A stretch of 64,000 nucleotides of DNA from assembly GCA_963924555.1 (NCBI GenBank), contig OZ004593.1, positions 6,072,480 through 6,136,479 of the forward strand, in the 5' to 3' direction. The notes under the pieces were generated by a model that ran no database searches, was not told the DNA's origin, and saw nothing but the letters and a program-made list of their open reading frames with translations. Position 1 is the stretch's first letter. Each line of letters opens with the position of its first letter. Below are positions 19,338 to 64,000 of this stretch, in pieces. A program made the position numbers and the translations under genes. Origin of the DNA: Crambe crambe (Eukaryota > Porifera > Demospongiae > Poecilosclerida > Crambeidae).

Positions 19338-22300
19338 ATGTTTACTTCTGTCATCATCATCAACTTGATTTTCTTATTGATTATTGAGCCAACACTATCT
19401 CAGTCAGAGAATTGTTCACCAGAAGGAGGTTAATAGCTAGCTAATATTGTGTGTTAGGCCATTGTAAGCAGAGGTAGCTAACTATAGGATATAGCCACAG
19501 TACAGCTATATAGCTCTAGCTCTATGAATAGCATAATTATCAATTATAGCCGATTCAGTGCATGCGTAATGAGGGACAGCTGCACTGTATAGCCAATACA
19601 TAATATAATATTGGTGGATTACATTAGCTATGTTAATTATGACATTCCCACTGTGTTTTACATTCTTTCTGAAATCCTGACCCTATGAATATATATTTTT
19701 TCTCCCTCAAGCTACAGTACCAGTAGCTTGTAGCTCTAGATAATATGTATACATGCATGATAGCTAATAATGTTTATTATAGCTATGATTTTATTTTTAA
19801 ACCATAGCTAAACATGGCACTAAAGCACTATATAAGAAAATCTTGTCTATGATCCTACAGTATTCATACAGTCCCCAGACCAAAGATCTGCAGTGGCTCC
19901 TTTTGGACAACAAGTGCAGCTCAACTGTGAAGTTGCTTCCCCGGATACTCTTAGACATTGGCGTATCTTTGCTGGTGGTAGGGAAAGTTTTTCAACTTCT
20001 GACCCAAGAGATTATGCTGAAAGGCATATAACAATAGTGACTGTATCAACTACTTCATCTCAACTCATAGTCAATTCTACAGAGATGAATGATAATATTA
20101 CCATAGAATGTCACTCCAGGTCCAGATCTATGAGTTGTCCAGTCTATACAATATTCTTTGGTAAGTTCTACAATATTATACTGCTGGTATTGTAAGCTGA
20201 ATGTATACAAAAACTCTGTGACATTAAGTAATTCAGCAAGGTCATGCACCAGCCAAAAACTTTTAGTTCACTGTAATTACAGTTTATCATAAACAATGGT
20301 TCCAGGTCCACCCAGTAACCTCACTGTTGTAGCAGCAGAGAATGGGGTAGGATCTCTGAATATCTCCTGGTCTTTCTTGGCCATGGAGAGAGTGAAATCC
20401 AACTTCACACTGAATATCTCCAACCTGAATGACTCCAGTATCAACCCACATACAGAGACTGGAATAAGAAATCAGTACTACATTTTTCAGCCCAGGAAGA
20501 TAAACTGTGATGTCTACAGCTTTCAAGTTACAGCTATGAACAAAGCTGGAGCAGGCAACCCCAGTGAGATAACTATGAGTATACCCTCACAACCTAACAT
20601 TACTGCATTAGAGAATTCACTCAATTTTTCTCTGGTCAAGAATCGGACAAGAAAAAGGGTCATTCTTACAATTCAGTTCACTGTATGTTAAGGAGTATAT
20701 CTATATATCTATATAGTAGTTATTATTATAATGGTTATACCCAATCACATAGAGACTGTAAAGTTGATAAATGACTTTTACCAGGCATGGCCATGTACAT
20801 GCACATACAGGCATATTAGACTAGCTACTTCAAATCAGCTAGCTATTCTATTGGTCCAACCTGTTCATTAAGCTTTGATCTTTGATATACATAGGAACAT
20901 TGTGTGTTATTTATTTTTCTGCATGCAGGAGGCTACATCATGTCCAGACTATCCAGTTACAGATTATTCTATAGTCTTGGAGGATAGTGAAGGACATAAC
21001 ATGGTAATAACTCCTGGAAATGAGTTGATAGCAGTATTTCCATTAATGGAGGATTTACGATATTCCATTTTGGTCATAACGAACAACACACTAAGTAGTG
21101 TGAAATCTGCTCCAGTGGAAATAGGTAATTTTTAGTCATAAAAACTATAGAGCCCCCCATATAGAACCAGGGAAACTTACTAAGGTGCCTGCATTACATA
21201 GTAACCTATACTTTCAGATACCTGCACAGTCGTGCATATATGGCTGCAACAAGTGGTTTTCCAACTAATTCGAGTTGTAATAACTGGAGCATCCACTATG
21301 ATTGTAGAAACCTCTTAACTAATAAAAAAATTTCTTAGAAACTGTTGCAAAAACCATGCACTCTGTGTCAGGAAGTCTTTCAATGAGTAGAAATATGTCT
21401 CCACTTAAAGGAAGCTAGCTGTTGTTTTGCTAATGCATAATTATAGCTTTGAGGAACTCCAGCTAGTCAATTAATTTCTCCTCCCTTCTCTTCCTCTCTT
21501 CTCCCCTCCTTCCCCTCCCTCCTTCTCCTCTTCCTCCTCTTCTCCTCCTTCCCACTCCCCTCCCCTCCTCGCCCTCCCCCTCAATTTAGTGACTACAGAT
21601 GCCAAAGATGTGATAGTCACTATGTTAAATGGTTCCACCTACTCCATCAAATGTCATTTCATCACTGGTAGTGATGCTCGTGGGTGTGTTTACACCTTGG
21701 TGAGTGGGGTGGAGGGGGTGGAGAATATCACAGACACCATAGAGAGGACCAACTCTGAAGGAGTAGTAATCATAAGGATCCATGATGCCACCTGCTTCAG
21801 AGAAATATTAGCCTACGATTGGGAAAATGATAACAGCACTGGATCAGTTTCAATAATGCGCGATATTTCATCAGTTCTTGGCTGTCCTACAAGTTCAAGT
21901 AAGTTGATCAATTAGAGTTCTAAAGAAATAGTTTCCTCTAGAGTGTATGTAGCTAAGTAGGTTTGATTACTGACTATATATAGTTAAGTAGCTATGACTT
22001 TGTTTATCTCCCTGCATTTTACTAGCTTATCAGGACTCGAGATCATAAACTGAAAGTACACTCATCTCTCTCTCTCTCTCTCTCTCTCTCTCTCTCTCTC
22101 TCTCTCTCTCTCTCTCTCTCTCTCTCTCTCTCTCTCTCTCTCTCTCTCTCTCTCTCTCTCTCTCTCTCTCTCTCTCTCTCTCTCTCTCTCTCTCTCTCTC
22201 TCTCTCTCCCTCTCTCTATGAGAATCAAAATAATAACACATTCTTCTCCTACATGTAGGCACAATCTCCACCAGTGGTCTTGTGACTTCTACAAAGTCCT

Positions 22301-63722: not shown

Positions 63723-64000
63723 TTGTTAACTACATGTTCCCATCTCCTCTCCATATCAAGAGAGTCTAATTTTACAGGTCCTCCAAGCACAGCAATGCCA
63801 CCTGGTCCAAATATGGATGTAGCTGCCATAGTTGTTCCAGTTATAGCCATCCTTCTCCTTGGTCTCATCATCATTATTGCTGTTCTTATACTATTACGCT
63901 ATAAAGGTACTGTATGTCACTACTGTACATTGTCACACACCTTACATTTTCTTCATTGAAACAGGTATCTGGAACAGAGACAAGCAAGTCAAAGCTGGAT
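62467..64000 (+). CDS. Receptor R7: Ig-FN3-FN3-TM, runs off the window
   Basis: Exons: 62467-62536 (signal peptide SKSVLAMIILIAAQS), 62587-62913 (Ig-like), 62971-63338 (FN3), 63408-63609 (FN3), 63670-63720 (linker with MMMCPSTT), 63778-63906 (TM: VVPVIAILLLGLIIIIAVLI), 63965 onward (GIWNRDKQVKAG, start of the tail). Phases agree. The ectodomain is nearly identical to R6, but from the linker donor onward it follows R3 (intron, TM and first tail exon GFWDRDKYDIQVKAV). An R3-like ITIM tail is expected beyond 64000. A poly-T run at 63371-63406 precedes the second FN3 exon. Confidence 0.83.

Follow-up and report, generated by a model that had tools for sequence, protein, structure and literature searches.

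In the sponge Crambe crambe, chromosome 13 carries a cluster of Ig-FN3 receptor genes that we interpret, with a probability of roughly 0.6, as paired recognition receptors, mostly of the ITIM type, that evolve by birth and death and whose ligand would be a self/non-self marker or a microbe. The DNA itself gives the structure of two units, the domain folds, a one-chromosome cluster, pseudogenes, an ectodomain joined to different tails, and a tip that appears to diverge faster than its stalk. We analyzed a stretch of 64,000 nucleotides (the window) together with the genome odCraCram1.1, a single haplotype, which as searched comprised 143,139,886 bases in 119 contigs.

Receptor units and domain folds

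The window contains seven receptor units, U1 to U7, which share a plan of signal peptide (SP), Ig tip, two FN3 domains (FN3a and FN3b), often a third, FN3-like domain (D4), transmembrane segment (TM), and a tail with tyrosine motifs. For U1 and U3, hand-located introns, placed from the DNA alone, gave complete models with an open frame. The TM and tail exons of U4 were read by eye and have no script model, and a scan for hydrophobic starts found no start exon for U4 or U5. None of the TMs, as read by eye, has a charged residue inside it. D4 is present in U1, U2, and U4 and absent from U3, U6, and U7; the D4 exon of U1 is flanked by phase-1 introns, so its gain or loss keeps the frame. U6 has one middle tail exon that lacks a donor present in U4. 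The short stretch between U2 and U3 may function as a promoter.

Table 1. Receptor units of the window (window positions, except in the first row, which gives contig positions)
Feature	Position	Strand	Remarks
Window	6,072,480-6,136,479		C. crambe chromosome 13 (contig C16)
U1 receptor gene	19338..24875	+	GT-AG introns, phases consistent, frame open
U1 exons, ectodomain	SP 19338-19428, Ig 19861-20160, FN3a 20306-20682, FN3b 20929-21124	+	
U1 exons, rest	D4 21590-21898, TM 22259-22402, juxtamembrane 22491-22519, tail 24164-24598 + 24693-24875	+	
U2 receptor gene	25457..28859	-	two Ig exons, 28263-28607 and 27540-27884; tail missing from model
U2 other exons	FN3a 26386-26790, FN3b 26108-26323, D4 25664-25942, TM about 25500	-	
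U2/U3 intergenic	28860..29012		head-to-head start codons 153 bp apart
U3 receptor gene	29013..32121	+	without D4; GT-AG introns, phases consistent, frame open
U3 exons, ectodomain	SP 29013-29064, Ig 29267-29596, FN3a 29648-30030, FN3b 30086-30284	+	
U3 exons, rest	TM 30450-30575, juxtamembrane 30634-30665, tail 31119-31349 + 31960-32121	+	tail type A, C-terminal ..IIEYAEINVGTVD
U4 receptor gene	33876..35864	-	Ig 35529-35864, FN3a 35090-35476, FN3b 34836-35036, D4 34499-34780, TM; tail type B, NQAYEAVKISGSKVPAPEYAEITTLVS
U5 pseudogene	39225..40828	-	frameshifts in Ig and FN3a; EYVEI in tail remnant
U6 receptor	44316..46925	-	SP, Ig 46477-46809, FN3a 46054-46422, FN3b 45797-46000, TM; tail type B, C-terminal PAPEYAEITTLVS
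U7 receptor	62467..64000, on to 65061 beyond the window	+	SP, TM about 63780-63906; tail type A, contains ..TIEYAEVGHKL
U7 exons	Ig 62583-62915, FN3a 62970-63338, FN3b 63408-63611	+	

Structure prediction of an Ig exon gave a confident model (pLDDT 94.7) with a fold like that of a TCR V domain and the Cys-Trp-Cys core, which places the tip in the immunoglobulin superfamily. FN3a matched PF00041 at E<=1 in 13 of 13 cases. Among the joined proteins, U3 scored 52.8 bits against Pfam fn3, above the cut-off of 25, and U1 scored 19.8, below it; both had a weak ig match. We had considered D4 as a candidate novel fold and rejected this, as it looks FN3-like, and the FN3 fold was found in it. Pfam scans detected no sushi domain in the Ig, FN3a, and D4 exons or in joined U1 and U3, and no TIR or Calx-beta domain in joined U1 and U3. 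An earlier note on this DNA had described receptor units of a probable sponge, built of Ig and FN3 domains, TM, and tails, some in head-to-head arrangement, and had proposed profile searches and structure prediction as a check; the models of U1 and U3, the two folds, and the 153 bp separation of U2 and U3 bear this description out.

Foldseek returned NCAM Ig1 in its first row for the Ig model, and the best match of the Ig profile among PDB sequences was insect DIP-alpha. These matches would suit a tandem array of ordinary adhesion or cell-sorting molecules with no role in self/non-self discrimination or defence, as would the Ig-FN3 order, which is typical of adhesion molecules. A 2025 review, in the portion of its text available, associates the sponge immunoglobulin superfamily chiefly with cell adhesion and recognition between cells. 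We consider this explanation unlikely: the tip-focused divergence, the near-identical ectodomain on different tails, the pseudogenes, and the recurring ITIM-type motifs described below argue against it.

The surroundings of the units also contain other sequences. To the left, on the minus strand (window 10083-18870), lie spectrin-repeat ORFs and a B-box/NHL-repeat protein, which are outside the receptor family. Self-comparison revealed long imperfect tandem repeats at window positions 50794-51934 and 58615-59440. Between U6 and U7 are a weak DEAD-box helicase fragment (47143-47316), a DDE_Tnp_1_7 transposase (49271-50255), and a reverse transcriptase ORF (52671-54422); these mobile-element ORFs are possible agents of local rearrangement.

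Family size and divergence of tip and stalk

Searches of the genome with Ig exons from the window identified at least 29 distinct Ig exons, all of them on chromosome 13 between 4.79 and 6.54 Mb; all family counts given here are lower bounds. In the first Ig search, 30 of 30 rows fell on this chromosome and represented 27 distinct exons, because three broken exons give two rows each, and two further searches added one exon apiece; in the second Ig search, 21 of 21 rows were on it. The clustering described in the earlier note is thus confirmed. Its claim of birth-and-death evolution with pseudogenes is supported by the frameshifted U5 and by further broken units, and its near-identical copies are found in U6 and U7, whose ectodomain DNA is 95.2% identical, yet which have a different TM and tail type if U6 is spliced as predicted. 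A near-identical ectodomain on different tails is, as far as the gene models allow, the arrangement of paired receptors.

A search with D4 gave 15 rows, of which 13 were on chromosome 13 and two, both weak, on contig C20 (chromosome 17). The locus L022 on C20 has the domain order of the family and an SSHYSSI motif; its Ig exon, used as a query, returned four rows (two on C20, one of them itself, one on contig C17, and one on contig C13), and its Ig and FN3 ORFs had no Pfam match. We therefore rejected the proposition that the whole family lies on one chromosome: the L022 domain order, its Ig rows, and the D4 rows on C20 indicate a small distant branch elsewhere, mainly on chromosome 17. L022 and its neighbor L023 (3.84-3.85 Mb) look like distant cousins of the receptors. 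Separately, fn3 matches extend over about 1.2 Mb of chromosome 6 (C9, 2.34-3.53 Mb), where an I-set Ig domain in one ORF of the locus L008 precedes a segment resembling the juxtamembrane region of receptor tyrosine phosphatases.

We compared the divergence of tip and stalk by parsimony counts of nonsynonymous and synonymous changes per site (N/S) on the Ig tree, using 14 members of the main subfamily (12 for FN3a and 13 for FN3b). The ratio was 0.87 for Ig, 0.57 for FN3a, and 0.55 for FN3b (Ig versus FN3a, p 0.042). Within the Ig domain, for which segments had been fixed from the alignment and the model strands before any count, the ratio was 0.43 in A-B, 0.91 in C-C'-helix, 0.81 in D-E-F, 2.43 in the FG (CDR3-like) loop, and 0.23 in G. 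The FG loop gave p 0.055 against neutrality and p 0.015 when compared with the remainder of Ig, the latter being lost under correction for five segments, and C-C'-helix plus FG differed from A-B plus G with p 0.001; as a pooled pairwise count (FG 4.1) had been made before the tests were picked, these statistics are suggestive. The trees ignore gene conversion, which is likely, since members 5064252 and 5069490 have 12 differences in Ig and 75 in FN3b, and the trees are therefore approximate. In 158 of the 171 pairs formed by 19 Crambe members, the Ig parts were less alike than the FN3a parts. The counts suggest that divergence is faster in the Ig tips than in the FN3 stalk, and greatest in the FG loop.

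Profile searches of 5.8 billion proteins (ENA and NCBI records) returned 19 and 31 rows, and a homologue search with U3 alone returned one match. Crambe itself accounted for two of the 19 and six of the 31 rows, on one contig of 1,711,867 bases, and row P0035 carries the Crambe D4. We compared 12 of the 19 rows (P0002-P0004 and P0006-P0014), omitting the Crambe rows, the rows with D4 only, and P0016, in which the FN3 type is more divergent. These relatives share 38-58% identity with U1, and their contigs measure 8 to 452 kb; their FN3a parts have a mean identity of 90.7% (81-98%). In the search with 31 rows, one 90% cluster comprised 21 member sequences. In the three relatives with a partial Ig, identity was 34-51% in Ig and 83-88% in FN3a. 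A variable tip on a uniform stalk thus appears to be seen a second time, in few Ig parts and in one or several species. A scan of prokaryote genomes for relatives gave 34 pattern matches, none of which was confirmed.

Tail motifs and a candidate signalling partner

Two unrelated tail types recur in the family, and both end near [EVD]YAE[IV]. The type A pattern has five matches in the genome and the type B pattern 15, all of them on chromosome 13 (5/5 and 15/15); the reversed type B pattern, used as a control, has none. Across six frames of the fetched sequence, a YAE[IV]-type expression matched 24 times: 17 matches lie in 16 tails assigned to receptors by context, and the other seven are stray. 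Sequence was available for 13 of the 15 type B tails, which were located by the letters upstream of the motif; ten have YAEI, two have YTEI or YVEI, and one is truncated. The ten YAEI tails carry synonymous variants at all four codons (TAT/C GCT/C GAG/A ATT/C), and the letters past the motif vary freely, but as these tails were chosen for the motif, the absence of replacements there is no test by itself. All eight units in which Ig and FN3a are intact have YAEI, as do two of five broken units (Fisher p 0.035, with units sorted by the state of Ig and FN3a after the tails had been seen), which suggests that selection keeps the motif.

The earlier note had proposed ITIM- or ITAM-like motifs; the former were upheld, and the support for the latter is weaker than that note implied. 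The strict ITIM, [SIVL]xYxx[ILV], occurs three times in the U1 tail (SKYSSI, SMYSTV, and SNYSQL; p 0.014), once in that of U3, which is not above chance (p 0.29), and not in that of U4. Most type B tails read PEYAEI, with P at -2, and so have a relaxed form outside the strict pattern. The strict ITAM (YxxL/I x6-8 YxxL/I) was rejected, as none of the three tails contains it; U1 has two overlapping YxxL/I pairs with x12 spacing (p 0.0006 against shuffles). Tyrosines in YxxPhi form number 7 of 10 in U1 (p 1e-4), 4 of 7 in U3 (p 0.013), and 2 of 2 in U4 (p 0.028). The tail of U1 is of its own kind: besides itself, it has two weak matches in the genome (42-44% identity), both at C17 3338296-3342179, where a further receptor with tyrosine motifs like these may lie.

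Endocytic signals also take the form YxxPhi, and the motifs might be AP-2 sorting signals rather than phosphotyrosine switches. Every tail motif has this form, the distance from the membrane exon is 37 and 52 residues for those of U4 (with the tail as read), and Y and I are kept in two of the three altered tails of broken units (YTEI and YVEI). AP-2 does not need likeness at +1, +2, or -1, whereas the YAEI tails are also alike at +1 and +2, and at -1 in nine of ten. This likeness, the position of the motif close to the C terminus in both tail types, unrelated as they are, the seven motifs in U1, and the presence of an SHP-type phosphatase in the genome make sorting signals an improbable explanation.

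The usual partner of an ITIM is a phosphatase of the SHP-1/2 type. We found 135 SH2 matches in the genome at E<=0.001, all above the cut-off (150 of 166 candidates were scored). One locus, L065 (C18:6537500-6541500), reads as a pair of SH2 domains split among three ORFs and a tyrosine phosphatase split between two, with VVHCSAGIGRTGTF. The stretch of the second SH2 domain matches PTPN11 at 1.3e-57. For one stretch of the phosphatase, the best matches are LAR-type receptor phosphatases (6e-43), followed by PTPN11 (2e-34), and we call the locus SHP-1/2-type because of its domain order. An SHP-1/2-type phosphatase is encoded in this genome, and the tails would recruit it. A Syk-family kinase has been reported in Amphimedon, according to the accessible part of that paper (PMC9601881). 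On chromosome 3 (C5, 1.42-1.66 Mb), 32 SH2 matches lie within 240 kb, many of them paired, and L064 has small tandem-SH2 ORFs; this set is possibly a co-expanded adaptor family.

In the recognition-receptor reading that we prefer, the V-set Ig tip would be the recognition part of a type I protein, carried on two or three FN3 domains, which form a better conserved stalk, and a single TM. Contact with ligand would lead a Src-type kinase to phosphorylate the tail tyrosines, and YAE[IV], by itself or together with YE[AMT]V or YxxL upstream of it, would recruit a tandem-SH2 SHP-type phosphatase that damps the response of the cell. Members with the same tip on different tails would act as paired receptors, and a variable ligand would drive diversification of the tip.

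Possible roles and comparison with known systems

Allogeneic self-markers and microbes are both possible ligands, and the preferred reading does not choose between them: allorecognition would be the bolder choice, and microbe sensing fits equally well. A role in microbe sensing, in which the tips would diversify against bacteria or symbionts and ITIM-type signals would damp phagocytosis, is a non-exclusive branch of that reading and shares its sequence evidence. Other sensor families are expanded in sponges, namely SRCR and, in Dysidea avara, NLR, as far as the available text of the sources goes. Nothing here links the Crambe genes to microbes; we regard this role as a real possibility that falls short of even odds. 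A more specific proposal, which we put forward tentatively and consider rather unlikely, is that the interval from 4.79 to 6.54 Mb is a sponge histocompatibility complex, in which paired receptors with V-set tips would read variable self-markers and YAE[IV]-SHP inhibition would stop rejection on self. Sponges tell self from non-self tissue with specificity, as stated in the part of the source at hand (PMC5450542). If the histocompatibility proposal is true, the sponge lineage would share the missing-self logic known from NK cells, Alr, and FcoR. The named region and exons are testable candidates for sponge self/other discrimination. In full-text literature searches, which covered few subscription papers, no sponge receptor family of this kind was described.

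Vertebrate KIR, LILR, SIRP, and Siglec receptors have near-identical ectodomains on different tails, evolve by birth and death, and use ITIMs that recruit SHP. Judged from its genes, the Crambe family appears to share the reuse of ectodomains, birth and death, and ITIM-type tails; it differs in its FN3 stalk, and no activating partner with a charged TM residue was seen among the TMs read by eye. Among sponge genes, the aggregation factors, which have Calx-beta domains, differ from U1 and U3, in which Calx-beta was not found, and Ig-TIR genes differ from them in having TIR. Both sets have likewise been considered for recognition or immunity, the Ig-TIR genes in the accessible text of PMC12909245.

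A 2025 review, in the parts available, states that candidate allorecognition proteins are not conserved across sponges, cnidarians, and ascidians, and that ITIM/ITAM-type signalling ties cnidarians and ascidians to mammals (PMC12065747). According to the same parts, Botryllus FcoRs (fuhc locus) are, like the Crambe receptors, clustered type I proteins with a V-type Ig tip and tails that contain ITIMs and the core motif Y-x-x-I/L/V, but they carry sushi and C2 Ig domains, and the Crambe receptors had no sushi match (PMC12065747). Cnidarian Alr, whose tails contain ITIM and hemITAM motifs in that account (PMC12065747), appears similar in its clustered, duplicated Ig receptors, V-set tip, and tail tyrosine motifs, and in Podocoryna some Alr members lie outside the main cluster, as in the Crambe family, in the section of the paper available (PMC13119343). 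The Crambe family differs from Alr in phylum and in its FN3 stalk, and the likeness is one of architecture. With an Ig-FN3 family in a sponge that is clustered, diversified at its tips, and equipped with ITIMs, the convergence of cnidarians, ascidians, and mammals would reach Porifera.
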